Below, piece by piece: positions 8,897-32,746 of a stretch of 64,000 nt of DNA; within the stretch, counting starts at the first letter, position 1; each line of letters begins with the position of its first letter. Source of the DNA: Streptomyces sp. NBC_00083 (GTDB lineage Bacteria; Actinomycetota; Actinomycetes; Streptomycetales; Streptomycetaceae); NCBI RefSeq assembly GCF_026343295.1, contig NZ_JAPELY010000001.1:806001-870000 (forward strand). The letters run 5' to 3'. The notes beneath the pieces are model-generated. The model had not been told where the DNA came from. It was given only the letters and a program-made list of their open reading frames with translations, and ran no database searches. The position numbers were made by a program, and so were the translations under genes.

Positions 8897-9565
8897 ATGG
8901 TTTCGCAGGAGAGCAAGAAGAACCCGCCGCTGCGGCGCGACGCCCGGCGCAATCGGGACCTCCTGGTCGCGGCGGCCAGGGAACTCTTCGCGGAGCAGGG
9001 GATCAACGTCCCGCTCGACGAGATCGCCAAGCGTGCGGGCGTGGGCAACGCCACCCTCTACCGGCGCTTCCCGACCCGCGGCGACCTGGTCGAAGCGGTC
9101 TTCCACGACGACCTGACCGCGGTGATGGCCGCCGGCGAACGCGCCCGCGCGGCCGACGGCGCGTGGGGCGCGCTGACCGCGTATCTGGAGGGCGTCTGCG
9201 CGCTGCTCGCCCGCGACCGGGGTGTCGGCGACCTGATGACCACCGGCATCGAGGGCGCGCCGACCCTGGACGCGATCCACCTCCACAACCACACGACGGT
9301 GAGCGGGCTGATGCGCCGCGCCGCCGAGGACGGCGAACTGCGCACGGACGTCGTGACGGAGGACCTCCTGTTCGCCCTCAGCGCCCTCGGCAGCTCCCTC
9401 CCCGCGATCGAAGCGGTCCGCCCCGGCTCCTGGCGCCGCCACCTGGCCCTCCTCCTGGACGGCTTCCGCGCCACGGCCCAGCGCCCCCTGCCCGAACCGG
9501 CCCTGACCGCCGAGGAGACGCAGGACGTCTACCGCCACCTGGGCGGCGAACCACCCACGCCGTGA
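8897..9565 (+). CDS. TetR/AcrR family transcriptional regulator
   Basis: This 222-residue protein has a typical TetR N-terminal helix-turn-helix (about residues 15-62; ELFAEQG, LDEIAKRAGVGNATLYRRFPTR) and a helical C-terminal ligand-binding domain of the TetR_C_11 kind. It is probably a repressor of itself or of a neighbouring gene. It lies between the terminator of the cytochrome b unit and the patatin gene; a 58-base gap to the latter would allow cotranscription. The ligand is unknown. Confidence 0.85.
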   Translation: MVSQESKKNPPLRRDARRNRDLLVAAARELFAEQGINVPLDEIAKRAGVGNATLYRRFPTRGDLVEAVFHDDLTAVMAAGERARAADGAWGALTAYLEGVCALLARDRGVGDLMTTGIEGAPTLDAIHLHNHTTVSGLMRRAAEDGELRTDVVTEDLLFALSALGSSLPAIEAVRPGSWRRHLALLLDGFRATAQRPLPEPALTAEETQDVYRHLGGEPPTP

Positions 9566-9623: not shown

Positions 9624-10526
9624 ATGGGTGAGGACGTGGTGGTGCAGGGCCGGGGGGCGGGGTATCGGTGTGCGTTCGTGCTGGGGGGTGGCGGGGCGCT
9701 GGGGGCCTATGAGGTGGGGATGCTCAGGGCGCTGGTCGCGGCCGGCGTGCGGCCGGATCTCGTGGTGGGGACGTCGGTGGGGGCGATCAACGGCGCGGCG
9801 TTCGCGGCCGAGCCGACCGCCGGGTCCGTCGAGCGGCTGGGGGAACTGTGGGGCAGCCTCGGGCGTTCCGGGGTGTTCTCGGGGTCGGTGCTGCGGCGGC
9901 TGCGGCTCGCCGCGCGCAACCGCACGCACCTCTACGCGTCCGAGCCGCTGAGCGAGCTCCTGGAGACCCGGCTGCCGGCGAAGAACTTCGAGGACCTCGC
10001 CGTGCCCTTCGAGTGCGTCGCGGCCGGGATCGAGAGCGCGTCCGAGCACTGGTTCACGCGGGGGCCGCTGGTCCCGGCGGTGCTCGCGTCCTGCGCGGTG
10101 CCGGGGCTGCTGCCGCCCGTGGAGATCGACGGGGAGCACTTCCTCGACGGCGGCCTCATCAACAGCATCCCCGTGGGCCGGGCCGTCGCGGCGGGGGCCC
10201 GCACCGTGTACGTCCTGCAAGTCGGGCGCGTGGAGCGGCCGTTGAAGGCACCGCGGGCGCCGTGGGAGGTGGCCTCGGTGGCCTTCGAGATAGCCCGGCG
10301 CCATCGTTTCACCCGCGACATGGCGGACCTGCCGCCCGGGGTCGAGGTGCACGTGCTGCCCACGGGCGCCTCGTCCGACCGGGGCGAGGACATCGCCGGG
10401 CGCAGGTTCCGCCACCGCGACTTCGGGCGCTCCTGGCAGCGGATGGAGTGCGCGTACGAAGCGTCGGCCGCCTATCTGGAGGCGGCGGGCAAGCCCGCGC
10501 CCCGCACGGACGACGGCGCTCCATGA
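9624..10526 (+). CDS. Patatin-like phospholipase (RssA/YlbK-like)
   Basis: This 300-residue serine acyl hydrolase has the complete patatin signature: the glycine-rich oxyanion loop GGGGALGAYE (21-30), the nucleophile S51 in GTSVG, and the catalytic Asp D175 in DGG. It probably hydrolyses membrane phospholipids or lysophospholipids. The gene overlaps the next one by four bases (ATGA), so the lipase and the downstream acyltransferase are made together. This fits a deacylation/reacylation pair for lipid remodelling (inference). Confidence 0.9.
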   Translation: MGEDVVVQGRGAGYRCAFVLGGGGALGAYEVGMLRALVAAGVRPDLVVGTSVGAINGAAFAAEPTAGSVERLGELWGSLGRSGVFSGSVLRRLRLAARNRTHLYASEPLSELLETRLPAKNFEDLAVPFECVAAGIESASEHWFTRGPLVPAVLASCAVPGLLPPVEIDGEHFLDGGLINSIPVGRAVAAGARTVYVLQVGRVERPLKAPRAPWEVASVAFEIARRHRFTRDMADLPPGVEVHVLPTGASSDRGEDIAGRRFRHRDFGRSWQRMECAYEASAAYLEAAGKPAPRTDDGAP

Positions 10527-11599
10527 GCCGCGCGGCCGGCGTGCGCGATGTCGCCAGACGGTGCGTCACCGTGCCCGCGTTCGTCGCCCTGGTCCCGCTC
10601 GCCCTCGCGCTGCTGCTCGTGACGGTGGCGCTCGCCCCGCTGTCGCTGCTCGCCGGCCGGCGCGGACGCGCCTGGCAGCCGCAGCGCCTGGCCCTCTACG
10701 CCGTCGTGTACCTCCTCGCCGACCTCACCGGGGTGGGCGCCGCGCTCGTCGTGCGGCTGCGCTGCCTGGGCGGCGGCGCGGCACGGCGGGAGCGTCTGGT
10801 GACGCTCAACTACCGGCTCCTCGCCCGGCTCCTCGGCTTCCTCGTGGGCTGCTCCCGGCGGATCTTCGCGCTGAGCGTGGAGGTCGACCCGCCGCTCCCG
10901 CGGCCCGGCGCCCGGCCGCCGGACGGCATGGTCGTCCTCGCCCGCCACGCGGGGCCCGGGGACTCCATCCTGCTGGTCCACGGCCTCCTGTGCGGGGCGG
11001 GCCTGCGCCCCCAGGTCGTCCTCAAGGAGTTCCTGCGCTGGGACCCCTGCATGGACCTGGTGCTCAGCTGCCTGCCGCACTGCTTCGTCCCGCGGCATGC
11101 CGACACCGACGGGCGTACGCCGGACGCCATCGGCGCCCTCGCGGCCGGGCTGCGCCCGGGTGACGCGCTCGTGCTGTTCCCCGAGGGCGGCAATTTCACC
11201 GAGCGGCGCCGAAGCCGGTCCATCCGCTGGCTCGTCCGCACCGGCCAGCTGCGGAGGGCGGCCCGCGCGCGGCGCCAGCACCACGTCCTGCCGCCGCGGA
11301 CGGCGGGCCCGCTGGCCGCGCTGAGCGGGGCGCGCGACGCCGGGGCGGCCGTCGTGTTCGTCGCGCACACCGGGCTCGACCACATCGACTCGCCGTCGCG
11401 CCTGTGGAGTTCGATCCCGCTGCGCCGCCCGGTGCGCGCCACGTGGTGGAGCGTGCCCGGCCGGGCGATACCGACCGGGCCGGAGGCCCGCGAGCCGTGG
11501 CTGACCGGCCAGTGGGCGCGCGTGGACGCGTGGATCGGCCGGCAGGGGAGCGAGAGCGCGCCGCCCCGCACCGCGCCGCCCCGCACCGCTCCCTCCTGA
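10523..11599 (+). CDS. PlsC-like lysophospholipid acyltransferase
   Basis: This 358-residue protein has an N-terminal hydrophobic region (about residues 15-45 and 58-78) followed by a PlsC domain. The acyltransferase motif HxxxxD is present as H142-D147 (RHAGPGDS), and motif III as FPEGGNF near residue 220. The enzyme is expected to transfer an acyl group to a lysophospholipid or similar acceptor. I took the ATG at 10523 inside the stop of the patatin gene. The frame is open upstream of it, but the ATGA overlap and the hydrophobic N-terminus support this start. The C-terminus is rich in Pro and Thr repeats. Confidence 0.85.
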   Translation: MSRAAGVRDVARRCVTVPAFVALVPLALALLLVTVALAPLSLLAGRRGRAWQPQRLALYAVVYLLADLTGVGAALVVRLRCLGGGAARRERLVTLNYRLLARLLGFLVGCSRRIFALSVEVDPPLPRPGARPPDGMVVLARHAGPGDSILLVHGLLCGAGLRPQVVLKEFLRWDPCMDLVLSCLPHCFVPRHADTDGRTPDAIGALAAGLRPGDALVLFPEGGNFTERRRSRSIRWLVRTGQLRRAARARRQHHVLPPRTAGPLAALSGARDAGAAVVFVAHTGLDHIDSPSRLWSSIPLRRPVRATWWSVPGRAIPTGPEAREPWLTGQWARVDAWIGRQGSESAPPRTAPPRTAPS

Positions 11600-11722
11600 C
11601 AGGACACCCGGGTCGTACGTCACTGACCTGGCCCGAAATCGACGCGCGAGCCCCACGCCGCCGCGCGCACCGGCCCCCGCACCGGCCGCGCACCGCCTCC
11701 CGCCCGGCCCCCGTCCGGCGAA

Positions 11723-11756
11723 TGGTCCGGAGAGCGGCAGGGAGAGTGGTCTGGAG
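11723..11756 (+). promoter_or_regulatory. Direct repeat TGGTCyGGAG x2, 24-bp spacing; candidate MocR operator A
   Basis: Two copies, TGGTCCGGAG at 11723-11732 and TGGTCTGGAG at 11747-11756, are exactly 24 bp apart and 95-128 bp upstream of the first gene of the biosynthetic cluster. The same core at the same spacing is found upstream of the main operon (19863) and, less perfectly, between the DMT transporter gene and trpF (17551-17581). MocR-family regulators commonly bind direct repeats. Assignment to the MocR protein of this cluster is an inference. Confidence 0.5.
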
Positions 11757-11850
11757 CGCGACCTGACCCGTTCGCAGACTTGGGGCACAGCCGTTCGGAG
11801 TCCGCGCGCAGTCGTGTGCGGACCCAGCGAAAGCCGAGACGGGGGTCACT

Positions 11851-12867
11851 GTGGCGGCGTTGCCCACCACCATGCCCGGCGGACCAGAACGTCCGCCTTC
11901 CGTGATCGTGGGCTACGGTCACGCGGGCAGAGATCTGCACCATGCGGCGCTGCGCACCCTGCACGGGGCGGACCGCACGGTCTTCGTGGTCGACCCCGCG
12001 CTGCGGGAGGCGCCCCCGGGAGTCCGCCTGCTCCCGTCGCTGCGGGCCGTGGCCGAATGCGGTCCGGTGGCGCAGACGGTCTTCCACGTCACCACCCCGC
12101 CCGGCGCCCACGTCGCCTGCGTCGAGCGGCTCGTGGCGCTCGGGGCCCGGCGCGTCATCCTGGAGAAGCCGATCGCCCCGACCGCCGAGGAGAGCGCGCG
12201 GCTGCGCGGACCGGCCGGACTCGCCACGATCCTGCCGGTCAGCGTCTGGCCGAACAGCCGGGTGACCCGCGAGGTGCGGAGCATCATCGCCTCGGGCGAG
12301 ATCGGCGAGCCCGTGGCCCTGTTCATGGAGCAGAGCAAGCCCCGGTTCGGCCGCACCTCCTCGTCCGACGCGCACCACACCGCGTTCGAGGTGGAGCTGC
12401 CCCACCAGGTGCTCCTCGCCCTCCACCTGGCCGGGCCGCGCGCGCGGATGCTGTCCTCGACGACCTGGGCCATGCCGCTGCCGGACCGGGTGATTCCCGG
12501 GATGGGCGGCGCCGTGCTGCGCCTGGAACACGAGAACGGCACCGTCAGCACCCTGCTGAGCGACCTCACCTCCCCGGCCCGGCGCCGGCATCTGCGCGTG
12601 ACCGGCACCCGGGGGGAGATCGCCGCCGACTTCCCGGTCGGCGCCGACGACCCGTTCGGGCAGATACGGATCTCCGGCAGGCCCGGCCGCACCGTGGTCG
12701 AGGACGCGCCGCTGACCCGGTTCGTCGAGGCCGCGTACGCCTGCTTCACCGGCGAAGGGCCGCCGCCCCCGGCCGGGCTCGACCTGCACCAGCGGGCCAT
12801 CGGCCTGCTGGAGCAGGCCCGCGAAAGGGCCGTGCCGGCGGCCTTCGAAGAGGCGGTGGCGGGATGA
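11851..12867 (+). CDS. Gfo/Idh/MocA-family oxidoreductase
   Basis: This 338-residue NAD(P)-dependent dehydrogenase has an N-terminal Rossmann domain (GYGHAG at 21-26) and the family EKP motif at 105-107, followed by the C-terminal alpha/beta domain. Members oxidise or reduce a hydroxyl of sugars, cyclitols or their nucleotide forms. It is the first gene of a four-gene unit with two ATP-grasp ligases and an exporter, and is coupled to the next gene by ATGA. The start is a GTG at 11851 with GGGGG 10 bases upstream; an ATG at 11872 is possible. Substrate unknown; the context suggests a sugar or cyclitol building block. Confidence 0.85.
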   Translation: MAALPTTMPGGPERPPSVIVGYGHAGRDLHHAALRTLHGADRTVFVVDPALREAPPGVRLLPSLRAVAECGPVAQTVFHVTTPPGAHVACVERLVALGARRVILEKPIAPTAEESARLRGPAGLATILPVSVWPNSRVTREVRSIIASGEIGEPVALFMEQSKPRFGRTSSSDAHHTAFEVELPHQVLLALHLAGPRARMLSSTTWAMPLPDRVIPGMGGAVLRLEHENGTVSTLLSDLTSPARRRHLRVTGTRGEIAADFPVGADDPFGQIRISGRPGRTVVEDAPLTRFVEAAYACFTGEGPPPPAGLDLHQRAIGLLEQARERAVPAAFEEAVAG

Positions 12868-14087
12868 GGATCGCGATCGTCGAACCGCGCTCGGCCGGCC
12901 ATCAACTCGTCGACCGGTCAGCCGAGTTGGGGTACGACACCATCGTCCTGACCGCGGGCCACGGGGAGCGCCGGGTGCCGGACGCGCAGCTGGCCCGTGC
13001 GAGCCAGGTGGAGTCCGTCGACACCAACGACGAGGCGGCCACGCTCGCGCGGCTGCGCAAGCTGCACGAGCAGCGGCCCCTCGACGCCGTCGTGCCGGGC
13101 TTCGAGCACTACGTGCCGCTCGCCGCGACCGCCGCCGCCGGCCTGGGGCTGCGGGGTCTCTCCGCCGCCACCGCCCTCGCGCTGCGGCACAAGCACGTGA
13201 TGCGGGACGTCCTCGCGGCCCACGGAATCGACCAGCCCGGCCATGTGCTCGTCACGGACGAGGCGGAGCTCGCCGCGGCGACCGCCGCCGTGGGCCTGCC
13301 CTGCGTGATCAAGCCCGTCGACCAGTCCGGCAGCCTCAACGTCCGCAAGGTCGCGACCCCGGCCGAGGCGCGCGAGGCGTTCCGCAGGATCCACGGGTAC
13401 GGCGTCGGCTATCTCGACCGGGCGGGGCTGCCCCTGGTGCTGGTCGAGGAGTACGTGCCCGGCGCCGAGTTCAGTGTCGAGGGGTACGTCGACGACGGCG
13501 CCGTGGTGGTGCTCGGCATCACCGAGAAGCAACTCGGCCCGGAGCCCTGGTTCGTGGAGGTCGGCCACCTCCTCCCGGCCCGGCTCGACCCCGGCACCGC
13601 CCGTACCGTCGAGCGGTACACCGTCGACGTGGTCCGCGCGCTCGGCCTCGAACTCGGTCCGTTCCACGCCGAACTGAGGCTCTCCGACCGGGGACCGCTC
13701 CTGATGGAGGTCGCGGCCCGGCTGCCCGGCGACCGCATCCCCGACCTGCTCAGGCTGGCCACCGGGGCCGACCTCTACGCGATCACCCTGGCCTCGTACC
13801 TGGGCCTGCCCGGCCCGCCCGAGCCGTCCGGGCCCGGCACCGGGCACGCGGGCATCCGCTTCTTCCTGCGGCCCGGACTCGACAGCTACCGGCGGATGGA
13901 GATCGCCCCCGAGCTGCACGCCGACCCCCGGCTGCGGGAGATCGGCGCGCTCGTCGCGCCGGGACGGGCGGTGCCCGCGCAGGGCAGCTCGGCCAGCCGC
14001 CTCGGCTACGCCCTCGCCGCCACGACGAGCTACCGGGCCACCACCGAAGCGCTCGACGCGGCGGAACTCGGAACGCGCTTCGCGTAG
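12864..14087 (+). CDS. ATP-grasp ligase 1 (L-amino acid ligase type)
   Basis: This 407-residue protein consists of a Rossmann-like pre-ATP-grasp domain (about 1-100), the ATP-grasp fold with the LPCVIKPVDQSGS loop near residue 150 and VEEYVPGAEFSVEG near 195-208, and metal-binding residues in LLMEVAARLPGD near 275. ATP-grasp enzymes activate a carboxylate as acyl phosphate and join it to an amine. Together with the adjacent MFS gene this recalls the BacD/BacE pair of bacilysin biosynthesis. It is coupled to the preceding dehydrogenase gene (ATGA). The two substrates cannot be read from the sequence. Confidence 0.85.
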   Translation: MRIAIVEPRSAGHQLVDRSAELGYDTIVLTAGHGERRVPDAQLARASQVESVDTNDEAATLARLRKLHEQRPLDAVVPGFEHYVPLAATAAAGLGLRGLSAATALALRHKHVMRDVLAAHGIDQPGHVLVTDEAELAAATAAVGLPCVIKPVDQSGSLNVRKVATPAEAREAFRRIHGYGVGYLDRAGLPLVLVEEYVPGAEFSVEGYVDDGAVVVLGITEKQLGPEPWFVEVGHLLPARLDPGTARTVERYTVDVVRALGLELGPFHAELRLSDRGPLLMEVAARLPGDRIPDLLRLATGADLYAITLASYLGLPGPPEPSGPGTGHAGIRFFLRPGLDSYRRMEIAPELHADPRLREIGALVAPGRAVPAQGSSASRLGYALAATTSYRATTEALDAAELGTRFA

Positions 14088-14137
14088 CCGCGTCCCTCGT
14101 TGTCCCTCACTTGTCCCCCACGGAATCGGAGCACGCC

Positions 14138-15364
14138 ATGGGACGCCACGTCCTGATCCTGAACCGCTGGAACAACCGGTTCGCCGAGTACCACCGCTAC
14201 CTCGACCACCGCGTGGACCGGGTGAGCTACGTGACCACGGCGGCCGGCGCCGGCCCCCTCGACGCGGCGCTCGCCGAGGAGATCACGGTGGTGGCCGATC
14301 TCGGCGACCGGGCCGCGGTCGCCGCGGCGGCCGCCGAACTCGCCGACCGGCACGGCCCGTTCACGCACGTCCTGGCGCTCTCGGAGTTCGACCTCGAACT
14401 CGGCGCCGAACTGCGCGAGCGCCTCGGAGTCCCCGGCAAGCGCCCGGAGGAGGTGCGCCTCGTGCGGGACAAGGTCGTCATGAAGGCCGCGGTCGCCGCC
14501 GCGGGACTGCGCGTGCCGGCCAACCGCGCCGTCGAGAACGCCGACGACGTACGGGCGTTCGCCGCCGGGGCCGGCTTCCCCTTCGTCCTGAAGCCGCGCG
14601 GTGGCGCGGACAGCCAGGGCGTGCACGTGCTCCAGACCGTCGAGGCGATGGAACGCGCCCTGGCGGAGGAGGAGTTGACCGGGTTCCAGTGCGAGGAGTT
14701 CATCGACGGAAACCTCTACCAGGTGGACGGCGTGGTCTCCGGCGGCGTCCTGCGGACCCTCCGCAGCTGGCGGTGCATCGGCTCCTGCCTCGACTTCGCC
14801 GAAGGCTCGCCGTTCGGGTCCGTCGCCAACGACGACGCCGCGTTCGAGTCCCGCGTCGTCGAGTTCACCGAAGGTGTACTCGCGGCCCTCGACCTGACCG
14901 ACGAGGTGTTCCACCTGGAGGTCTTCCGTAGCGCCGGCACGGACGAACTGGTCTTCCTGGAGATCGGCGCGCGGGCCGGCGGCGGGCAGGTCAGGTTCGT
15001 CTGGGAGGAGGTGTACGGGCTCGACCTGATCGAGGCGTCCGTCCACGTCCAGCTGGGCATCGAGCGGACGTACCCGAAGGCGGAGATCGGCGGCGAGGTC
15101 GCCGGATACCTGATGATGCCCGAACCGCCGGTCCGCCCCGCCGTGGTGCACCGCGTGGCCCCGCTCACCGGCGCCGTCCCCGAGCTCTACGCCGAGACGC
15201 TGCCCCCGGCCGGCACGGTCCTCGACGGCAACGGCGGCGCCGTGCACACCGCCGGCACCTTCCGCTTCCGGGCGGCGACGGCCGAGCAGGTGCGGGCCGC
15301 CATCGAGACCGCCGTGAAGCTGTACGAGATGGACTGGTCGCCCGCGGAGGGCACCGATGGCTGA
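14138..15364 (+). CDS. ATP-grasp ligase 2
   Basis: This second ATP-grasp ligase has 408 residues and starts at an ATG with GGAG nine bases upstream. Motifs are FPFVLKPRGGADSQG near residue 148, CEEFIDGNLYQVDG near 187, and the metal/ATP site FLEIGARAGGGQV near 272. It differs strongly from ligase 1, so the two probably make different bonds or activate different carboxylates. The gene overlaps the MFS exporter gene by eight bases. Two sequential ATP-grasp ligations would allow a tripeptide-like or bis-amide product without an NRPS (inference). Confidence 0.85.
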   Translation: MGRHVLILNRWNNRFAEYHRYLDHRVDRVSYVTTAAGAGPLDAALAEEITVVADLGDRAAVAAAAAELADRHGPFTHVLALSEFDLELGAELRERLGVPGKRPEEVRLVRDKVVMKAAVAAAGLRVPANRAVENADDVRAFAAGAGFPFVLKPRGGADSQGVHVLQTVEAMERALAEEELTGFQCEEFIDGNLYQVDGVVSGGVLRTLRSWRCIGSCLDFAEGSPFGSVANDDAAFESRVVEFTEGVLAALDLTDEVFHLEVFRSAGTDELVFLEIGARAGGGQVRFVWEEVYGLDLIEASVHVQLGIERTYPKAEIGGEVAGYLMMPEPPVRPAVVHRVAPLTGAVPELYAETLPPAGTVLDGNGGAVHTAGTFRFRAATAEQVRAAIETAVKLYEMDWSPAEGTDG

Positions 15365-16658
15365 GCCCGCCCGCGCCCCCCGGACGCTCTGGGGGCACGC
15401 CGACTTCCTGCGGCTGTGGGGCGGCCAGACCGTCGCCCTGTTCGGCACCCAGATCACCCTGCTCGCACTGCCGTTGACGGCGATGCAGCTCCTCGACGCC
15501 TCCGCGGGACAGCTCGGACTGCTGAACGCCCTCGAATACCTGCCGGTCGCCTGCGTCACCCTCCTCGCGGGCGTGCTCGCCGACCGGGTGCGCCGCCGCC
15601 CGCTGCTGATCGCGGCCAACCTGGGGCGGGCCCTGGTGCTCGCCCTCGTCCCTGTGGTCGCCTGGACGGGCCATCTGTCGATGGTCCTGCTCTACGTGGT
15701 GGCCTTCACGACGGGCCTGTTCACGGCGCAGTTCGACGTGGCGTACCAGGCGTTCCTGCCCACTCTGATCGAGAAGCGGCTGCTGGTCGAGGGCAACAGC
15801 AAGCTCCAGTCGAGCCAGTCCATCGCCCAGACCGCAGGGCAGGGAATGAGCGGCGTGCTGATCCAGCTGCTCACCGCTCCCGTGGCGGTGGTGGTCAACT
15901 CGGTCGGCTATCTGGTCTCGGTCGCCTCGCTGCTGACCATCCGCACCCCCGAGCCGGTGCGGACCGGCCCGCGGCGCAGCATCCGGGCCGAGCTCATGGA
16001 GGGGCTGCGCGTCACGCTCGCCCACCCGGTCCTGCGGGTCGTGATGGTCGAGTCGGCCTGGTTCAACCTGATGTGGGACGTGGTGCTCGTGGTGATGCCG
16101 ATCTACGGCATCCGCTCGCTGCACCTCGGCGCGGCCGGCCTCGGCCTGGTGATAGCGGCGGGCAGCGTCGGCGCCTTCGCCGGCTCACTGGTCGCCGGAC
16201 GGCTCGGCCTGCGCCTCGGGACCGGGCGGGCGATGGCGGTCGGCATGATGATCGCCAGCGTGGCGCTGCTCCTGCTGCCCGCGGCGGCCGGCTCGAAGCC
16301 GCTGGTGGTGACGCTCCTGACGGCGGGATACGTGATCAACGGCTTCGGCATCACCGTCTTCAACGTGCACTCGGTGGCGCTGCGCCAGGCGCTGGTGCCG
16401 ATCGAGCTGACCGGCCGGGTCAGCGCCACCTACCGCTTCGCGGCGTTCGCGGTGATCCCGGTCGGCGGCTTCACGGGCGGTCTGCTCGCCGAATGGCTGG
16501 GCCCGCGCGCCGCGTTGGCGGTCACGGTGGCGGGTCTGGTGATCGGCGCGGTGGCCTTCCTCGGCTCCCGCGTGGTGCGGCAGGCCGACGCGCACACCGT
16601 CGAGCCGATGGAGGAGCGGGCGCTGGTCACCGCGGGCGACCCGGCTCAGGCGCGCTGA
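15357..16658 (+). CDS. MFS exporter (MFS_3/EntS-like)
   Basis: This 433-residue major facilitator has about twelve transmembrane helices and resembles the exporter subgroup that includes EntS. Typical points are the N-terminal FLRLWGGQTVALFGTQ segment and the LADRVRRRP loop between helices 2 and 3. It is translationally coupled to ligase 2 and is the likely efflux and self-protection pump for the cluster product. Its 3' end overlaps the convergent DMT transporter gene by 32 bases. Confidence 0.9.
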   Translation: MAEPARAPRTLWGHADFLRLWGGQTVALFGTQITLLALPLTAMQLLDASAGQLGLLNALEYLPVACVTLLAGVLADRVRRRPLLIAANLGRALVLALVPVVAWTGHLSMVLLYVVAFTTGLFTAQFDVAYQAFLPTLIEKRLLVEGNSKLQSSQSIAQTAGQGMSGVLIQLLTAPVAVVVNSVGYLVSVASLLTIRTPEPVRTGPRRSIRAELMEGLRVTLAHPVLRVVMVESAWFNLMWDVVLVVMPIYGIRSLHLGAAGLGLVIAAGSVGAFAGSLVAGRLGLRLGTGRAMAVGMMIASVALLLLPAAAGSKPLVVTLLTAGYVINGFGITVFNVHSVALRQALVPIELTGRVSATYRFAAFAVIPVGGFTGGLLAEWLGPRAALAVTVAGLVIGAVAFLGSRVVRQADAHTVEPMEERALVTAGDPAQAR

Positions 16659-17514
16659 CCCCGTACAGGACGGCCGCCCCGATCACCAGCGCCCCGATCA
16701 CCGAGGTCGGGGCCAGGTGGCTGGTGCCGAGCAGCGGTCCCAGCAGGACGGCGGTGAGCGGGACGACCCCGGCGAACAGGCCGGCCCGGTCGACACCGAG
16801 CAGTCCGATGCCCGCGTACCAGAGGAAGAAGGCGAGCGCGGTGACGACCAGGGTGAGGTAGCCGAGGGCCAGCCATTCGGCGGCCGTGGGCTGTTGCAGG
16901 GCGCCCGCGCCCTCCGTCACCGCGGCGGCCACCGCGAGCATCGGCGCGGCGGCCAGGCAGGCGAAGGCCGAGAGGCGCCGGGGGCCGAGCGCCGGCAGCA
17001 GGCCGACGGCCAGCAGGGAGAAGCAGCATTCGCAGGCGAGCGCGCCCAGCGCGTACAGCAGGCCGGTGAGCGAGCCGTGGCCGAAGGCCTGGATCACGCA
17101 GACCCCGGCGGTGGTGACGAGCGCGGAGAACGCGATCCGGGCCGAGGGCCGCTGCGCGGAGCCGAGCGGCCCGGCGACGGCGAGGACGACCGGGGCCGCG
17201 CCGACCACCGCCCCCACCGTCGACGGGTCGGCCCGCTGGACCGCTTCGAGGAGGCAGACGTTGAAGCCGGCCATGCCGGTGGCGGCCAGTAACGCGATCC
17301 TGGCCCACTGGCGCGGAGTGAGCCGGACACCGGGGGCCGAAGCGCCGCGGCGGGCGAGCAGCAGAAGGAGCCCGGCGACCACATAGCGCCATGCCTGGCC
17401 GGAAAGCAGCGGATATTCGGTGAGCACCGGACTCACGGCCGCCGAACTGCCGACCGCCACCATGGCGGTGGCGGCGCAGATACTTCCGCGTGCCGTGCTT
17501 GCGTCAAGGGACAT
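16627..17514 (-). CDS. EamA/DMT-family transporter with a TTA codon
   Basis: This 295-residue protein has ten hydrophobic helices in two EamA repeats, as in drug/metabolite exporters of the RhtA/YdcZ kind. It is transcribed divergently from trpF. Leu75 is encoded by TTA (bases 17292-17290 on the minus strand), a codon read in Streptomyces only by the developmental tRNA encoded by bldA; I noticed no other in-frame TTA in the window. This would delay the transporter until the antibiotic-producing phase. Probable role: export of the product, or of an amino acid intermediate. Confidence 0.85.
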   Translation of the reverse strand: MSLDASTARGSICAATAMVAVGSSAAVSPVLTEYPLLSGQAWRYVVAGLLLLLARRGASAPGVRLTPRQWARIALLAATGMAGFNVCLLEAVQRADPSTVGAVVGAAPVVLAVAGPLGSAQRPSARIAFSALVTTAGVCVIQAFGHGSLTGLLYALGALACECCFSLLAVGLLPALGPRRLSAFACLAAAPMLAVAAAVTEGAGALQQPTAAEWLALGYLTLVVTALAFFLWYAGIGLLGVDRAGLFAGVVPLTAVLLGPLLGTSHLAPTSVIGALVIGAAVLYGVSAPEPGRPR

Positions 17515-17550
17515 GGAAGAAAGTTAACGGCGGGTTGCCGAGTTGACGCG

Positions 17551-17581
17551 CAGTCCAATCCGGGTCCGGATCACCGGACCA
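17551..17581. promoter_or_regulatory. Palindrome and minus-strand repeat, candidate MocR operator B
   Basis: The 108-bp divergent region between the DMT transporter gene and trpF contains a perfect 7-bp inverted repeat GGTCCGG-ATCA-CCGGACC (17563-17580). On the minus strand, TGGTCCGG begins at 17581 and TGGACTG at 17557, again 24 bp apart. This is the weaker version of the repeats seen at 11723 and 19863. It could control both divergent genes. Confidence 0.45.
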
Positions 17582-17622
17582 ATTCAATCCAATGGAATGT
17601 TGGAATTCAGAGAGCGGGACAG

Positions 17623-18219
17623 ATGTTCGTCAAGATCTGTGGTTTGAGTACGGCGCCCGATATCGCGGCCGCCGTCGACGCCGGTGCCGACGCGATCGGC
17701 TTCGTATTCACGGAAAGTCCACGCCAGGTCGGTGCCGACGTGGTCCGGCGGCTGGTCGACGAGGTGCCGGACGGCGTGCTGACGGTGGGCGTGTTCCGGG
17801 ACGAGCCGCTCGCACACGTCCGCGAGACGGTGCGCGCCGCCGGGATCGGGGCGGTGCAGCTGCACGGCACGCACCCGCCGGCGGCCTTCGCCGCGCTGCG
17901 GGAGCTGGGTCTCACGCTGGTGCGTGCCACCGCGGCGGCCTCGGCCGCGGGCGCCGCCTGCGGGGAGTTCGGCGAGGACCTCCTGATCCTGGACTCGCCG
18001 AGCCCGGGTTCGGGGGAGCCGTGGGACTGGTCCGCGCTGGGCGCCGCCCCGCCCGCCGGCCGGTGGATGCTGGCCGGCGGCCTCGGCCCCGGCAATGTGC
18101 GCGAGGCGATCGGGGCGGCACGCCCGTGGGGCGTGGACGTGTCGAGCGGGGTCGAGGCGCGCAGAGGCGTCAAGGACCCCGCTCTCATCGAGGAGTTCGT
18201 CCGCCGCGCCAAGGCGTGA
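17623..18219 (+). CDS. trpF: Phosphoribosylanthranilate isomerase TrpF
   Basis: This 198-residue (beta/alpha)8 enzyme converts N-(5-phosphoribosyl)anthranilate to CdRP, the third step from anthranilate to tryptophan. The catalytic cysteine is C6 in KICGL and the general acid/base aspartate is D124 in LILDSP. The phosphate-binding segments LAGGLGPGNV and VDVSSGVEA are intact, so the protein looks functional. It is separated from the other trp genes of the cluster by the MocR gene. A dedicated TrpF is unusual in Streptomyces, where the dual-function PriA normally does this step. The start is an ATG after the weak site GCGGGAC. Confidence 0.93.
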   Translation: MFVKICGLSTAPDIAAAVDAGADAIGFVFTESPRQVGADVVRRLVDEVPDGVLTVGVFRDEPLAHVRETVRAAGIGAVQLHGTHPPAAFAALRELGLTLVRATAAASAAGAACGEFGEDLLILDSPSPGSGEPWDWSALGAAPPAGRWMLAGGLGPGNVREAIGAARPWGVDVSSGVEARRGVKDPALIEEFVRRAKA

Positions 18220-18225
18220 CGGAGG

Positions 18226-19680
18226 TCAGCCGGCGGCGTAGGCGGCGCTCCACCGGGGGTCGAGGGAGCGGTTGCGCGAGGAGCGCTGTTCTTCGATGGC
18301 GTCCCTGATGACGTACATCGACTCGGCGATGCCGGCCAGCGGCAGGGTGGAGTAGCCGATGACCAGGGCGGGCGGGCGGCTGCCGGGGCCGAACTGGTAG
18401 CGCGAGCCGCCGTGGACCAGGACCGAGCGCTCCAGGGCGGCCGCGGTCACCGCCGACTCGTCGATGCCGTCCGGGAGCCGGAGATAGGCGTGGAGTCCGG
18501 CGGACGAGCCGATCACGCGGGCCAGCGGCAGATGGAGTTCGACGGCCTGCGTGAACGCCTCGCGCCGTGAGCGGTACCGGGACCGCACCCGGCGCAGATG
18601 CCGGTCGAGCATGCCGCTGGTGATGAGCTCGGCGAAGGCGCACTGCGTGATGCCGTCGGAGCCGAGGTCGTGCTGGGACCTGACCCGGGTGAGCAGGGTG
18701 GCGAAGTGCTCGGGGATGACCAGCCAGCCGAGCCTGAGGCCCGGCACCAGGATCTTGCTGGCGGTGCCGGCGTAGACGACCCGGCTCGGGGCGAGCCCCT
18801 GGAGTGCGGACGGCCGGTCCCGGGGGTCGAACCAGAACTCGCCGTCGTAGTCGTCCTCGATGATCACGCCGTCGACCTCCTCCGCCCAGCGGACGAGGGC
18901 CGCCCGGCGCGCCGGGCTCATCGAGATGCCGGTCGGGAACTGGTGGGCGGGCGTCACGAGCACCGCGCGGGCGCCGCTCGCGGCCAGCTCCGCGACGTCG
19001 ATGCCCTCCTCGTCGACACGGACCGGCACGGTGCGCATGCCGCTCTCCTCGATGTACCTGCGCTGGCCGTTGTGCCCGGGGTCCTCGACCGCGAGCCGGT
19101 GGATGCCCAGCTTGGGCAGCGACTTGCAGAGCAGGGAGAGCCCCTGGGCGAAGCCGGCGGTCACCATCACCGTCTCCGTGCCGGCCCGCACGCCCCGCAT
19201 CCGGCCGAGGTATCCGGCGAGGGATTCACGCAGCGCGGGCAGCCCGGCCACCGCGGGATAGTCCAGTTCTTCCGGGCCCGCCACGGCAAGGACGGTCTTG
19301 TAACAGGCCAGCCATTCCACGCGGGGAAAATTGGTCACGTTGGCCCGGCCGGTCCTGAGGTCCCAGGTGACGGGGGACACCGGTTCGGGTTCGCGCAGGG
19401 CCTCGCCCAGCATCGGATCGGTCATGACCGTCCTGTCGGCGACCCGCGTCCCCGATCCCTGAAGACACGTCAGGAATCCCTCGGCGGTGAGCTGCTCGTA
19501 CGCCTCGACCGCCACGCTCCGCGAGACGCCGAGGTCACTGGCGAGCTGCCGGGTGGAAGGAAGTCGGGTCCCGGGGTGCAGGACGCGCTCCGTGATGCAG
19601 CCTTTTATCGCGGATTTGATCTGCTTCGTCAAAGACTCGTTTGAATCACGGTCTACCTCGATAGAGATGTGCCAGGTCAC
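18226..19680 (-). CDS. MocR/PdxR-type regulator (GntR helix-turn-helix plus aminotransferase domain)
   Basis: This 484-residue fusion has a GntR winged helix at about residues 15-80 (LPSTRQLASDLGVSRSV) and a fold-type I aminotransferase domain from about 110 with the PLP lysine K309 in AGTASK. Such proteins sense PLP or an amino compound and usually act as activators. It lies inside the biosynthetic cluster, convergent with trpF (six bases apart) and divergent from the main operon, so it is the probable pathway-specific regulator. The start is a GTG at 19680. Candidate operators are the TGGTC-type repeats upstream of all three units. Confidence 0.88.
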   Translation of the reverse strand: MTWHISIEVDRDSNESLTKQIKSAIKGCITERVLHPGTRLPSTRQLASDLGVSRSVAVEAYEQLTAEGFLTCLQGSGTRVADRTVMTDPMLGEALREPEPVSPVTWDLRTGRANVTNFPRVEWLACYKTVLAVAGPEELDYPAVAGLPALRESLAGYLGRMRGVRAGTETVMVTAGFAQGLSLLCKSLPKLGIHRLAVEDPGHNGQRRYIEESGMRTVPVRVDEEGIDVAELAASGARAVLVTPAHQFPTGISMSPARRAALVRWAEEVDGVIIEDDYDGEFWFDPRDRPSALQGLAPSRVVYAGTASKILVPGLRLGWLVIPEHFATLLTRVRSQHDLGSDGITQCAFAELITSGMLDRHLRRVRSRYRSRREAFTQAVELHLPLARVIGSSAGLHAYLRLPDGIDESAVTAAALERSVLVHGGSRYQFGPGSRPPALVIGYSTLPLAGIAESMYVIRDAIEEQRSSRNRSLDPRWSAAYAAG

Positions 19681-19862
19681 GCGTCCAAAACCCCCCCGGA
19701 TAGAGACGCATCGGCGACTGTCGCCGTCGGCACATTAAACACACAATTTGGGATCGAATCCAGTTATGTGAGACCGGAACAAACCGCCCCGTGCGGAGTA
19801 TTCACCTCAATTCGGCATGCTGATCTTCGCCGGCCGGCCCTCCGCGCCGGCCCGGCTCCCTC

Positions 19863-19925
19863 TGGTCTGCTCCGCGACGCCACAAATGGTCTGGGTGCGC
19901 TTCGTAGCCAGCTGGTCGACTGGAG
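19863..19925 (+). promoter_or_regulatory. Direct repeats TGGTCTG x2 (24-bp spacing) plus TGGTCGAC; candidate operator C
   Basis: In the 288-bp divergent region between the MocR gene and the main operon, TGGTCTG occurs at 19863-19869 and 19887-19893, 24 bp apart. A related TGGTCGACTGGAG starts at 19913. The repeats sit 44-106 bp upstream of the start codon of the NDP-sugar dehydrogenase, where an activator would bind. The remainder of the region (19681-19860) shows no clear promoter box; it is less GC-rich near 19730-19780. Confidence 0.5.
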
Positions 19926-19968
19926 TCACCGCACACCGATCCGCTAGCTGGACTGAGGGAACGAAGAC

Positions 19969-21321
19969 ATGACGAGTTTGTCTGCCCCCGCTCTCGCCGT
20001 CGCAAGGACGGGCACGGCCCAGGACGCCGAAGCCCTGGCGTTCGCGTCGAGGGTCGAGGACCGCACCATCAAGGTCGGGATCGTGGGTCTCGGCTACACC
20101 GGTCTCCCCCTGGCACTGGGCTTCGCCGACGCCGGGTTCCACGTGGTCGGCGTCGACATCGACCCCGTCAAGGTGGAGTCCGTCAACCGCTCCGAGTCCT
20201 ACCTGCCCGACCTCACGGACATCGAACTGCAGGACGTGGCCGACCGGTTGACGGCCGTGCCCGACCCGTCGGCGCTGCACGACGCCGATGTGGTGATGAT
20301 CTGCGTACCGACGCCCGTCACCCCCGAGCAGACCGCCGACCTGGCGTACGTGTCGACCGCGGTGGACAGCGTGCTGCCGTACCTGCGGGCCGGGAGCCTC
20401 GTGGTGCTCCAGTCCACCGTGCCGGCCGGCACCACCGCCGAGATCGGCCGGAAGATCACCGAACGCACCGGGCTGATACCCGGCGAGGACCTCTACCTGG
20501 CCATGGCCCCCGAGCGGGTGGACCCGGCCAACACCAACGGCTGGACGCTCCTGAACACCCCGAAACTGGTCGGCGGCGTGGGCGCCGAGTCCACCCGGCG
20601 GGCCCAGCTGCTCCTGGAGCAGGTGTGCCGCACGGTGGTGCCGGTCTCCAGCCCCGATGTCGCGGAGCTGTCGAAGGTGTACGAGAACACCTTCCGGCTC
20701 ATCAACATCGCCCTCTCCCTCGAACTCTCGGACCTCTGCCACAAGTTGGGGCTCCCGGTGCGCGAGGTCATCGACGCCGCCGCGACCAAGCCGTTCGGAT
20801 TCCTCGCGCACTACCCGGGCCCCGGCGTCGGCGGCGAGTGCATCCCCGTCGACCCGCTGTTCCTCAGCGAGCGGGCCCGGCGCGAGGGGCTCACCCTCGG
20901 CCTCGTGGAGACCGCACACCGAAGGATCTCCGACCGGCCCGGTCAAGTCGTCGCCCGAGTAGGTGAGTTGCTCGCCGCACGGGGGCGGGAACTGAAGGGC
21001 GCGCGGGTCCTGCTCGTCGGCGTGAGCTACAAGGCGGGTGTCTCCGACCTCCGCAACGCCCCGGCCGTGGACATCGTGCGCGGACTGCGCGCGCGGGGCG
21101 CCGAGGTCTCGTACGTCGACCCCATGGTCCCCGGCCTCGAAGTGGACGGCCTGCCCGTGGCCGCCGCCACCTGGGGGCGCGAGCAGCTCGCCGCCCAGGA
21201 CTGCGTGGTCCTGGTCACCCCGCACGGCCGGCTCGCCTCCGAACCCGCCTGGTCCGCCGCTCCGCTGGTCCTCGACACCCGGGGCGAGCTGGCGCCCGCC
21301 GCCAACGTCGAGGTGCTCTGA
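19969..21321 (+). CDS. NDP-sugar dehydrogenase (UDP-ManNAc/UDP-GlcNAc dehydrogenase type)
   Basis: This 450-residue enzyme belongs to the UDP-glucose/GDP-mannose dehydrogenase family, which oxidises C6 of an NDP-sugar twice to give an NDP-uronic acid. The NAD site GIVGLGYTGLP is at 37-47; the catalytic cysteine is C291 in GGECIPVDP, and the lysine-bearing segment ELSKVYENTFR is near residue 238. The residue before the cysteine pair is Glu290, where most relatives have His (GGHC). Overall it is closest to the WecC/WbpA group. About 30 extra residues precede the Rossmann domain. It opens the main operon and its stop shares one base with the trpD start (TGATG). Confidence 0.88.
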   Translation: MTSLSAPALAVARTGTAQDAEALAFASRVEDRTIKVGIVGLGYTGLPLALGFADAGFHVVGVDIDPVKVESVNRSESYLPDLTDIELQDVADRLTAVPDPSALHDADVVMICVPTPVTPEQTADLAYVSTAVDSVLPYLRAGSLVVLQSTVPAGTTAEIGRKITERTGLIPGEDLYLAMAPERVDPANTNGWTLLNTPKLVGGVGAESTRRAQLLLEQVCRTVVPVSSPDVAELSKVYENTFRLINIALSLELSDLCHKLGLPVREVIDAAATKPFGFLAHYPGPGVGGECIPVDPLFLSERARREGLTLGLVETAHRRISDRPGQVVARVGELLAARGRELKGARVLLVGVSYKAGVSDLRNAPAVDIVRGLRARGAEVSYVDPMVPGLEVDGLPVAAATWGREQLAAQDCVVLVTPHGRLASEPAWSAAPLVLDTRGELAPAANVEVL

Positions 21322-22349
21322 TGGGCCACGGCTCCCGGACGGTCCTCACGTCCGCGACCAAACAGCTGGTGCTCGGCCGCGACCTGGACGCCGAGGCCGC
21401 CGGTGCCGCCGTGTCCGTCCTGCTCGCCGGGGACACCGACCCGCTGGACGCCGCCGCCTTCCTGACCGCGATGGCCGCCAAGCACCCGTCGGCGACCGAG
21501 GTCGCCGCCACCGTGCGCGTCATCCTGGCGGCGGCCCGGCCGGTGCAGTGGCCGGGGCCCGCCGTCGACGTGGTCGGCAGCGGGGGCGACGGCAGCGACT
21601 CGGTGAACATCTCCACCATCGCGGCCCTGATCGCCGCCGCGGCCGGCGCGACCGTCGCCAAGGCGGGCAACCGCGCCGCCACCAGCAGGTGCGGCAGCGC
21701 CGACGTACTGGAGGCGCTCGGCATCCCGATCGAGCCCCTCGACCAGGTGCCGGCGCTGCTGGCCCGGCACCGGTTCGCCTTCCTGTTCTCGCAGGCCGTC
21801 CACCCGGTGGTCGGCCGACTCGCCCCCGTACGGCGCCGGTTGGGGTTCCGTACGCTCTTCAACCTGGTCGGCCCGCTCGCCAACCCGGTCCCGCTCGGCG
21901 GCCGTCTGATCGGCGCCGCCGACCACCGGGACCAGGAGATCCTGGCGCAGGCCGCCGCCGAACTCGGCATGCGGCGGACCTGGATCGTGCACGGCCACGG
22001 CGGCCTGGACGAGCTGTCCACCTCCGGCCCCAACCGGGTCCTGACGGTGGACGGCGACACGGCCGCCGAGACCAAGCTCGACCCGGCCGACCTCGGGCTG
22101 CGCCCCGCCTCGCGCGAGGACCTCAAGGGCGGCGACACCGCGGCCAACGCGGCGGCGGCGCTGCGGATCCTGGCCGGCGACGCGCCCGCACCCCTCCTCG
22201 ACACCTGCCTGTACAACGCGGCCGTCGTGCTGCACCTGGCGGAGCTCGCCCCCGGCCTCGACGCCGGCCTCGGCCTCGCCCGCTTGGCGACCTCCGACGG
22301 CTCGGCCCTTGCGCTGGTCCGCGCGCTCGCCGCCACCCCCGCCGCCTGA
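21321..22349 (+). CDS. trpD: Anthranilate phosphoribosyltransferase TrpD
   Basis: This 342-residue enzyme transfers phosphoribose from PRPP to anthranilate. It has the PRPP loop as GSGGDGSDSVNIST near residues 92-105 and the helix RRRLGFRTLFNLVGPLANP. The anthranilate-site motif normally written KHGN is KAGN here, and the following SSKSG-type stretch is TSRCG. The loss of that His may alter acceptor binding, for example to admit a substituted anthranilate (inference). The gene is coupled at both ends of its neighbourhood: TGATG with the dehydrogenase gene upstream, and a 61-base gap with a small hairpin before trpC. Confidence 0.9.
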   Translation: MGHGSRTVLTSATKQLVLGRDLDAEAAGAAVSVLLAGDTDPLDAAAFLTAMAAKHPSATEVAATVRVILAAARPVQWPGPAVDVVGSGGDGSDSVNISTIAALIAAAAGATVAKAGNRAATSRCGSADVLEALGIPIEPLDQVPALLARHRFAFLFSQAVHPVVGRLAPVRRRLGFRTLFNLVGPLANPVPLGGRLIGAADHRDQEILAQAAAELGMRRTWIVHGHGGLDELSTSGPNRVLTVDGDTAAETKLDPADLGLRPASREDLKGGDTAANAAAALRILAGDAPAPLLDTCLYNAAVVLHLAELAPGLDAGLGLARLATSDGSALALVRALAATPAA

Positions 22350-22373
22350 ACCCGTACACACCCCGTATGCGAA

Positions 22374-22393
22374 CCGTATGCAGAGCCATACGG
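22374..22393 (+). promoter_or_regulatory. Small hairpin in front of the trpC ribosome binding site
   Basis: In the only sizeable gap of the main operon (22350-22410), CCGTATG (22374-22380) pairs with CATACGG (22387-22393) around a six-base loop, ending three bases before AAGGAG (22397-22402). A second CCGTATGC lies just upstream (22363-22370). The stem could modulate trpC translation or stabilise a processed end; no Trp-codon leader is visible here. Confidence 0.4.
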
Positions 22394-22410
22394 AAGAAGG
22401 AGCAGCTCCC

Positions 22411-23199
22411 GTGCACCTCGATGAGATCGTCGCTCGCAAGCGCGAGGACTGGAGCCGGACCGTCGGCACCCCCGTGCCGGGCGAACGCCCGACGCCCGCC
22501 GTGCCGGGCACCTTCGCCGACGCGCTGCGCGGCCCGGACGTCTCGGTGATCGCGGAGGTCAAGCCCAAGTCGCCGTCCAAGGGCGAACTGCTGCCGCTGG
22601 ACCGCGCCCTCGACACCGCCCGCACCTACGCCGCCGCCGGCGCGTCCGCCGTCTCCGTCCTCGCCGACACCGCGTTCTTCGGCGGCTCGCCGGAGCTCGT
22701 CGCCTCCATCGCGGCCGACCCGAGGGTCACCGTCCCCGTGCTCTACAAGGACTTCCTCGTCGACACGCGGCAGGTCGAACTCGCCCACCGGACGGGCGCG
22801 GACGCCGTCCTGCTGATCGTCCGCGCGGTGGACGACGCCCTCCTGAAGGACCTCCTCCAGACCGCCGCCGGGCTCGGCCTCGACGCCCTGGTGGAGACCT
22901 TCACCGCACCCGAGATCGAGCGGGCCCTCGCGGCCGGCGCACACCTGGTCGGCATCAACAACCGTGACCTGCAGACCTTCTCGGTCGATCTGGAGAACTC
23001 CGCGAAGCTGCGCACCCTGATCCCGGCGGGTGTCCTCACCGTCAGCGAGAGCGGCATCGGCGGCCGGGGCGACATGGAGCGGATCGCCGGGCACGGCTTC
23101 GACGGCGTACTCGTCGGCGAGAACCTGCTCAGCGCCGCCGACACCGGCGCGGCCGTGGGCGAACTGCTCGGCGTCCGCACCGGAGAGGTGACCCGATGA
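22411..23199 (+). CDS. trpC: Indole-3-glycerol phosphate synthase TrpC
   Basis: This 262-residue TIM-barrel enzyme closes the indole ring from CdRP to indole-3-glycerol phosphate. The catalytic set is intact: IAEVKPKSPSKG (E and K), LYKDF (K), LVETF (E), GINNRDL (N), SESGI (E, S), and GVLVGENL for the phosphate site. I chose the GTG at 22411 because AAGGAG lies nine bases upstream; the frame is open further upstream inside trpD without family similarity. It is followed by a four-base overlap with trpB. Confidence 0.93.
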   Translation: MHLDEIVARKREDWSRTVGTPVPGERPTPAVPGTFADALRGPDVSVIAEVKPKSPSKGELLPLDRALDTARTYAAAGASAVSVLADTAFFGGSPELVASIAADPRVTVPVLYKDFLVDTRQVELAHRTGADAVLLIVRAVDDALLKDLLQTAAGLGLDALVETFTAPEIERALAAGAHLVGINNRDLQTFSVDLENSAKLRTLIPAGVLTVSESGIGGRGDMERIAGHGFDGVLVGENLLSAADTGAAVGELLGVRTGEVTR

Positions 23200-32075: not shown

Positions 32076-32746
32076 CGGACAGCACCACGTCCCTCGCGCC
32101 CCCGCACCCCATCGCCGTCGACGACGAGGCCGCCGCCGCGTTCCCGGGCGTCGAGGTGCTCGCCACCATCGCGGAGGTGACGGCCGACGGCCTCGACGAA
32201 GCGGCCGACGCGCTCTGGCTCGCCCAGCACGGCGCATGGCACGAGCAGTCCCGTGGCGCCATCCGCAACCACCCGCGCGTGGCGGCCTACCGGCAGCTGT
32301 CGAAGCTGATCGGCCAGGACCCGGACCGTCAGCCGCCGTCCATCCAGGCCCTGATCGACCGGGGCCTGCGCGCCAAGCCGGCCGGCGCGTGGCCCCGGAT
32401 CAACCCGGTGGTCGACGCGGTGAACGCGGTGGCCGTCACCGACCTGGCGGCGCTCGGCGTCTTCGACGCGGACCGGGTGACCGGAGCGGTACGGTTGGCC
32501 GTCAGCCGGGGCGGCGAGGACTTCCTCGCCCTCGGTGCGGACGACTCCGTCGCACTGGAGCCGGGCCGCCTGATCCTGGCCGACGAGGCCCGCGTCCTCT
32601 CCCTGTTCGCCCACCGCGACGGCGTCCACCAGTCGGTGACGGCGGCGACCCGCCGGGTGATCCTGCTGGGCTGCGTCGTCCCCGGCATCGACGCGGAGTC
32701 GGTGTCGGCCGCGCTGACGCGGGCGGCGAGGCTGATCACGGGCTGA
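32072..32746 (+). CDS. Stand-alone B3/4 domain protein (phenylalanyl-tRNA synthetase editing-domain type)
   Basis: This 224-residue protein resembles the B3/4 module of the PheRS beta chain, which hydrolyses mischarged tyrosyl-tRNA(Phe). Visible family features are SIQALIDRG near 89, PRINPVVDAVNAV near 107-119, and the glycine- and acid-rich LALGADDSVALEPGRLIL segment. As the last gene of the biosynthetic operon it could be a trans-editing or resistance factor that clears tRNAs charged with the non-protein amino acid made here, or a binding or deacylating enzyme for an aminoacyl intermediate; both are inferences. The ATG lies in the stop of the preceding gene. Confidence 0.78.
   Translation: MTDSTTSLAPPHPIAVDDEAAAAFPGVEVLATIAEVTADGLDEAADALWLAQHGAWHEQSRGAIRNHPRVAAYRQLSKLIGQDPDRQPPSIQALIDRGLRAKPAGAWPRINPVVDAVNAVAVTDLAALGVFDADRVTGAVRLAVSRGGEDFLALGADDSVALEPGRLILADEARVLSLFAHRDGVHQSVTAATRRVILLGCVVPGIDAESVSAALTRAARLITG

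Follow-up and report, generated by a model that had tools for sequence, protein, structure and literature searches.

Regulators of the MocR/GabR subfamily (GabR, TauR, PdxR, EnuR/EutR) join a GntR-type winged helix to an aminotransferase domain and act at direct-repeat operators with a TGG core, often in the divergent gap beside the regulator's own gene. Here we describe the same features in a 64,000-nucleotide stretch of Streptomyces sp. NBC_00083 (contig NZ_JAPELY010000001.1, positions 806,001 to 870,000; 'the window'), where three direct repeats of the form TGGWCYG-N17-TGGWCYG, with a period of 24 bp, all lie in intergenic DNA of a biosynthetic cluster that extends over about 11.8-32.7 kb. 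We read them, with a probability of roughly 0.88, as predicted operators for the product of 18226-19680, a MocR/GabR-type regulator, and the sequence comparisons below suggest that its most likely task is to provide biosynthetic clusters with an accessory supply of tryptophan.

The closest published boxes, CTGGACYTAA for TauR and AAAGTGGW(-/T)CTA for PdxR, as given in passages of PMC5320631 and PMC4494728, both resemble the AAnTGGWCYG of the present operators. The system differs from the described members of the subfamily in its predicted targets, accessory tryptophan genes as well as entire biosynthetic clusters, in its 24-bp period, and in that R207 of GabR is not conserved. It is like the PdxR regulons (pdxST) in having a similar box and in the best NCBIfam match of the protein, NF052282, but no pdx gene was recognised among the proteins scanned at the present loci. 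Accessory trp genes within a biosynthetic cluster are described for trpC2D2GE2 of the S. coelicolor calcium-dependent antibiotic (CDA) cluster (PMC5036795); compared by description only, the CDA genes differ from the present module, which has a MocR gene and operators inside it. Passages of the same paper describe the S. coelicolor trp genes as not negatively controlled by tryptophan. The words 'tryptophan', 'trp' and 'anthranilate' are absent from the main text of the MocR survey PMC5320631, whose regulon tables stand apart in its supplement, and at the level of titles and abstract openings we found no report of a MocR regulon for tryptophan genes. Direct-repeat MocR operators are known; what would be new is the target pathway, and a branch of the family that appears to keep the same working principle.

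Three direct repeats in one cluster

The repeats, which were read directly and also recovered by a pattern search of the window, and the regulator gene are placed as follows.

11723-11753, plus strand: operator 1, TGGTCCG-N17-TGGTCTGG, upstream of the Gfo/Idh-ATP-grasp-ATP-grasp-MFS genes; boxes TGGTCCG at 11723-11729 and TGGTCTG at 11747-11753
17551-17581, minus strand: operator 2, TGGTCCG-N17-TGGACTG, in the EamA/trpF divergent promoter region; boxes TGGTCCG at 17575-17581 and TGGACTG at 17551-17557
19863-19893, plus strand: operator 3, TGGTCTG-N17-TGGTCTGG, between mocR and the nucleoside diphosphate (NDP)-sugar dehydrogenase-trpDCBA operon; boxes TGGTCTG at 19863-19869 and 19887-19893
18226-19680, minus strand: MocR-type regulator, GntR winged helix-turn-helix plus class I aminotransferase domain (PF00392, PF00155, NF052282)

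Operator 1 stands 5' of the gene at 11851 (plus strand), ending 97 bp before this Gfo/Idh-type gene. Operator 2 is inside the 108-bp gap between the EamA gene (bounded at 17514, minus strand) and trpF (from 17623, plus strand), and operator 3 is inside the 288-bp gap between mocR (19680, minus strand) and the nucleotide-sugar dehydrogenase gene (19969, plus strand). An initial annotation of this DNA had pointed to TGGTCyG-type pairs with a 24-bp period in three intergenic places, which is what we find; its phrase 'before all three transcription units' holds for the three intergenic regions, but these potentially contain five promoters rather than the promoters of three units.

A perfect inverted repeat, GGTCCGG-TGAT-CCGGACC at 17563-17580, overlaps box 1 of operator 2; mixed direct and inverted boxes are described for MocR operators in passages of PMC5320631.

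Distribution among relatives of the regulator

Relatives of the regulator were collected from a sample of 295 genomes of the genus, 9 of which had a MocR match at E <= 1e-150, and from a sample of 391 genomes of the order, where the 28 with a match at E <= 1e-130 all belonged to that genus. A GTDB contig set contributed 21 loci, of which the 9 at 60-62% identity were taken as relatives while the 12 at 31-37% served for control; two plasmids were added to the relatives. The resulting 45 loci encode 43 distinct proteins (L020 and L031 are identical, as are L021 and L034); a second MocR of genome G330 (C1:1727659), one of 31 matches, was left outside the set. The more distant homologues used as controls number 22 loci, 10 from the own genome and 12 from elsewhere.

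A repeat operator near the regulator's own gene, as is usual in the MocR/GabR subfamily, is found throughout much of this set: an exact 24-bp pair lies within 400 bp upstream of mocR at 33 of the 45 loci, or for 31 of the 43 distinct proteins, and L076, L081 and L088 have a pair with one mismatch. Over all periods from 8 to 79 in the 45 loci, exact pairs occur at 24 in 33 loci, at 48 in six (three-box sites), and at 42 and 62 in one locus each. The orientation is constant as well, since every listed mocR-side pair is directed away from mocR and faces the divergent gene. The strict pair occurs in none of the 22 control loci, anywhere in the 4-21 kb scanned at each. L015 and L016 gave no usable alignment, although they were scanned whole like the rest, and in the 20 alignable control loci no 24-bp pair within one mismatch was found between -900 and +30. 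An exact pair of period 64 occurs in one control, L011, and another, L009, aligned only from residue 121 and may be a plain aminotransferase.

The link to MocR, a guess in the initial annotation, is strengthened by this contrast between relatives and controls, by the presence of the repeat at both units of a paralogous trp locus, and by a shared SRSVxVEAY segment (both described below). On sequence grounds, the repeat is tied to one regulator subfamily by its fixed 24-bp period, its fixed orientation at mocR and its recurring gene partners.

The tree divides the relatives into clade A with 10 proteins including that of the window (support 83/85, not strong), clade B with 27 (100/98) and clade C with 6 (100/100), and exact mocR-side sites are present for 9/10, 22/27 and 0/6 of these, respectively. 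Clade C, at 47-50% identity, has weaker boxes at the same 24-bp distance in all six cases; in these loci (L085-L090), beside a TrpE homologue, the degenerate 24-bp repeat AAGTGGTCTC / AGTGGTATGG stands close to the mocR start. An alignment of 58 sites, in which mocR-side loci were included only with at most one mismatch, gives the consensus AAnTGGWCYG ... AnTGGTCTGG; among its 25 'trpD-side' rows are L088, from clade C, and L027, which has no trpD next to it.

The gene partners recur in the same way. Relatives of trpD, trpG and trpE adjoin mocR in 24 of the 27 clade B loci, and a TrpE homologue adjoins it in all six of clade C. A second site precedes trpE in 7/7 of the trpE-bearing clade B loci that were read past a short flank (L017, L049-L053, L065), and in L065 it lies between trpE and a gene for 3-deoxy-D-arabino-heptulosonate 7-phosphate (DAHP) synthase. 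On two Streptomyces plasmids a class II DAHP-synthase gene is preceded by an exact 24-bp operator (L066 16489-16519 and L065 18624-18654), and the regulon may thus extend as far back as the first step of aromatic biosynthesis.

Proximity to trp genes is not sufficient to explain the motif. More distant MocR genes near TrpE/TrpG homologues (L037, L038, L041-L045 and L047, 33-37% identity) have no 24-bp site at mocR, so a trp-gene neighbourhood alone does not bring the motif. These eight loci, from Streptomyces and Micromonosporaceae, have TrpE nearby and TrpG in all but one, and form a MocR group of their own tied to chorismate enzymes.

Conservation in related clusters

An operon of NDP-sugar dehydrogenase-trpDCBA-DegT-DegT-AP_endonuc-M20 divergent from mocR is present in eight other Streptomyces, and the counterpart of operator 3 is exact in 8/8 of these distinct related clusters. 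GfoIdh1, the first gene behind operator 1, and TrpE were searched for in the eight genomes, and at the chosen cut-offs each had a single match in every genome. The initial annotation had named conservation in related clusters as a check, and the repeat does recur there: a 24-bp pair is present in the 300 bp before GfoIdh1 in 8/8 (three exact, four with one mismatch, one with two) and in the 300 bp before trpE in 8/8 (six exact, two with one mismatch), two-mismatch pairs being counted on the plus strand. In plus-strand profiles of these 16 regions over periods 12-40, exact pairs occur at period 24 only, in 9/16 regions, and one-mismatch pairs are found at period 24 in 15/16 and at any other period in at most three. 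The related cluster thus has the operator at three of its promoters, similar to what the initial annotation proposed for the window. The trpE and trpG genes of the related clusters were read directly in two; in the other six trpE is close by on coordinates, the contigs not having been matched by name.

Regulator protein and its likely signal

Both domains of the cluster MocR, PF00392 and PF00155, score above their curated cut-offs, giving the architecture of the MocR/GabR subfamily. A phmmer alignment to B. subtilis GabR (4n0b) covers residues 5-456 and places K309 on GabR K312 and R427 on GabR R430. In passages of PMC6917764 K312 is the lysine that holds pyridoxal 5'-phosphate (PLP), R430 binds the carboxylate, and R207 contacts the carboxylate of gamma-aminobutyric acid (GABA). 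GabR R207 faces G205 in the cluster MocR, and the SK motif is present in 21/21 proteins compared. Because the PLP lysine and the carboxylate arginine are kept while R207 is not, the signal is probably PLP together with an amino acid other than GABA. From the gene context one may guess at a tryptophan-related effector, perhaps tryptophan itself or a pathway intermediate, although we rate that guess somewhat short of even odds.

The putative recognition-helix segment SRSV(V/A)VEAY is shared by the proteins of clades A-C that were compared, with L036 as the exception, and six homologues further away have a different sequence there. In L036, a locus without an operator site, the segment reads SRRVVVEAY. 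This clade A gene (10001-11260, S. filamentosus) lies away from a trp operon, with no trp gene found within 10 kb.

Mode of action

In the mechanism that we propose, a head-to-tail MocR dimer would set a winged helix on each of the two boxes. The second box (AnTGGTCTGG) would occupy the position of the -35 hexamer, so that on the biosynthetic side the regulator would act as a polymerase-recruiting activator, and binding in the divergent gap would repress mocR itself. A private tryptophan supply would in this way be switched on together with the cluster that consumes it. The positioning of box 2 depends on a candidate promoter word, A[GC]A[AC]T, found about 22 nt after box 2 in 23/25 mocR-gap sites of clades B and C and also at operator 1, where it would correspond to the following element.

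11775-11780, plus strand: CAGACT, possible -10 element, 22 nt after box 2 of operator 1

The word was picked after viewing the alignment and then counted; slid-window controls gave 0-4/25. If it is the -10 element, box 2 would cover the -35 position.

The same geometry, with box 2 overlapping the -35 hexamer, also suits a regulator that mainly represses the biosynthetic units, blocking polymerase until an amino-acid-PLP adduct releases it, and EnuR, a MocR-type protein, is called a repressor in the abstract of PMC8739950. However, according to passages of PMC5320631 MocR proteins often activate the divergent target and repress themselves, and operators 2 and 3, like most of the relatives' sites, lie in divergent gaps. 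We therefore regard a mainly repressing regulator as rather unlikely, and moderately favour activation of the biosynthetic units.

Alternative readings

Operator 2, before EamA and trpF, is the least supported of the three sites, because the two related clusters examined in full have no counterpart region: in these trpF comes after the MFS gene, and a search for EamA found none. Its second box also departs from TGGTCTGG, and one could suppose that this site alone is a chance match or a decayed operator while operators 1 and 3 are real. Operator 2 is nevertheless an exact match to the strict motif inside a 108-bp gap, with the preferred GAAT before box 1, and its second box TGGACTG is used upstream of trpE in 5/8 of the related clusters, which makes a spurious operator 2 distinctly unlikely.

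The repeats might instead bind another regulator, with the MocR gene a mere neighbour. Candidates are a Streptomyces antibiotic regulatory protein (SARP), for which there is a SARP-type gene in the paralogous locus (BTAD, L017:7849-8910), a TetR-type protein encoded at window 8897-9565, and a PdxR acting from elsewhere, whose box AAAGTGGW(-/T)CTA (passages of PMC4494728) shares the TGGWC core and whose NCBIfam model fits the cluster MocR itself. Against these, the repeat follows the MocR subfamily across different clusters and is missing from the 22 control loci; the only pdxS of the genome (C3:2191558) has no nearby strict site, and its nearest MocR relative is at least about 57 kb away; and no SARP/BTAD match was found among the window proteins scanned around the cluster. 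Another regulator is accordingly improbable. The cluster MocR was not filed as a PdxR/vitamin B6 regulator either, since the score of the PdxR model is reached but neither linkage to pdxS nor an operator there was found.

How much the pattern says by itself depends on how strictly it is defined. Exact TGGTCYG-N17-TGGTCYG occurs four times in the 7.8-Mb genome, two of them in the cluster, and its reversed control not at all. TGGWCYG-N17-TGGWCYG occurs 10 times, with 7 for the reversed control, and TGGTCYG pairs with one mismatch 41 times, with 46 for the control, so that loose versions are at background. The initial annotation had proposed a genome-wide count: the exact pair is indeed rare, but the loose pair does not rise above control. 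Of the 10 TGGWCYG pairs, three are in the cluster and two at the paralogous MocR-trp locus; of the remaining five, four overlap reading frames of 152-583 amino acids with a third-position GC content (GC3) of 0.87-0.96, and the fifth is a tandem of TTGGTCCG. We noticed after the fact that the second box is TGGWCTG in all five MocR-linked sites, and that the other five end in CCG. Across 20 Streptomyces genomes the strict pattern occurs 4-19 times per genome, at control level. Since bare counts are at control level, the pattern alone cannot define a regulon, and the motif is meaningful through its place, not its count. Such numbers would allow three spaced pairs to arise by chance in GC-rich intergenic DNA, but the window contains 3 strict pairs against 0.01 expected (100 dinucleotide shuffles, none with three) and period 24 is conserved in many other loci, so that chance is already refuted by the comparative counts and its remaining probability is negligible.

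In one related genome (G036:C1:3176199-3176421) a 24-bp tandem repeat gives nine overlapping motif matches, unrelated to the MocR gene of that genome.

Evidence against the assignment

Several observations weigh against our assignment of the repeats to a tryptophan-linked MocR, and they concern the counts, the protein, individual loci and the promoters. In the 20 relatives' genomes the strict pair occurs 192 times, with 228 for the reversed control, and thus shows no excess. The eight related clusters are mutual relatives, so their sites are not independent, and when two mismatches are allowed in their profiles period 24 is found in 16/16 regions, but period 13 in 10 and period 29 in 9. The best-fitting NCBIfam model for the cluster MocR is that of PdxR, the vitamin B6 regulator, not a tryptophan regulator (384 bits, cut-off 320).

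Among the relatives, a mocR-side site within one mismatch is missing from the clade B loci L066, L079 and L084 and also from L036; L084 has a pair with two mismatches, and at mocR in L066 two boxes are separated by 23 bp. L079 and L066 lack the site even though their segment SRSVVVEAY is intact. Conversely, L054, with the same protein as L027, has the site although the 20 kb read there yielded no trp gene.

Neither operator 2 nor operator 3 contains the word A[GC]A[AC]T. In other loci it is absent from 29/30 sites before NDP-sugar dehydrogenase, GfoIdh1 and trpE (present in 0/8 for NDP-sugar dehydrogenase, 1/8 for GfoIdh1, 0/8 for clade A trpE and 0/6 for clade B trpE), and mocR-gap sites of clades B and C and operator 1 aside it occurs in 1/32 aligned sites. 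No sigma-70 consensus promoter was found in a scan of 11500-20100. Finally, passages of PMC5320631 describe MocR repeats as spaced in whole helical turns, and 24 bp is not a whole number of turns.

A second trp locus elsewhere in the genome

The closest paralogue of the cluster MocR (58% identity, C2:606064-607467) sits in a module of trpC / trpD / mocR / trpG-trpE, by Pfam, whose neighbours are adenylation-domain, TauD-type and SARP-type genes. Two strict 24-bp sites are present there, one in the trpD/mocR gap and one before trpE. The whole genome has four TrpE-like genes. The window cluster itself contains trpD, F, C, B and A, and the same search as used for the related clusters found neither trpE nor trpG in it, so anthranilate must come from elsewhere, possibly from this second locus on contig C2. 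The two loci might share their regulation, because the paralogous locus has the same operators together with the trpE and trpG that the cluster is missing.

Taking this further, and only tentatively, this Streptomyces MocR subfamily might be a dedicated tryptophan sensor-activator that takes tryptophan or an intermediate as the external aldimine of PLP and has repeatedly been recruited to antibiotic-type clusters, in some loci apparently back to DAHP synthase. One operator code would then yoke two unlinked clusters, the anthranilate synthase of one feeding the trpDFCBA of the other. A subfamily of MocR proteins that stands beside accessory trp genes and has a defined operator provides a regulator open to test and a ready key for searches. 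It is also a possible handle for switching on silent clusters, and aromatic amino acids may prove to be a new class of ligand for PLP-type transcription factors.

Genes of the cluster

The remaining genes of the cluster are as follows.

11851-12867, plus strand: Gfo/Idh/MocA-type oxidoreductase, first behind operator 1 (PF01408)
12843-14087, plus strand: ATP-grasp ligase 1, start not settled (PF13535; homologues in related clusters)
14138-15364, plus strand: ATP-grasp-like ligase 2 (weak ATP-grasp matches in the longer frame 14111-15364)
15357-16658, plus strand: MFS exporter (PF07690)
16627-17514, minus strand: EamA/DMT transporter, behind operator 2 (PF00892)
17623-18219, plus strand: trpF, phosphoribosylanthranilate isomerase (PF00697)
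19969-21321, plus strand: nucleotide-sugar dehydrogenase, first behind operator 3 (TIGR03026)
21321-25182, plus strand: trpD, trpC, trpB, trpA (TIGR01245, PF00218, TIGR00263, TIGR00262)
25179-32746, plus strand: rest of the operon, with two DegT aminotransferases, AP_endonuc_2/isomerase, M20, Ldh_2, Gfo/Idh-DUF6917 and B3/4

Gene order in the first part of 25179-32746 is kept in the related clusters. Two ATP-grasp-type genes, a nucleotide-sugar dehydrogenase, two DegT aminotransferases and a private tryptophan pathway together characterise a cluster type present in at least nine Streptomyces. Control of the trp genes by a T-box or riboswitch was considered and rejected, as an Rfam search of 9000-34000 at gathering thresholds gave one tRNA only. 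A tRNA gene at 32902-32974 (minus strand) lies just past the last cluster gene and could mark a cluster boundary or an insertion point.

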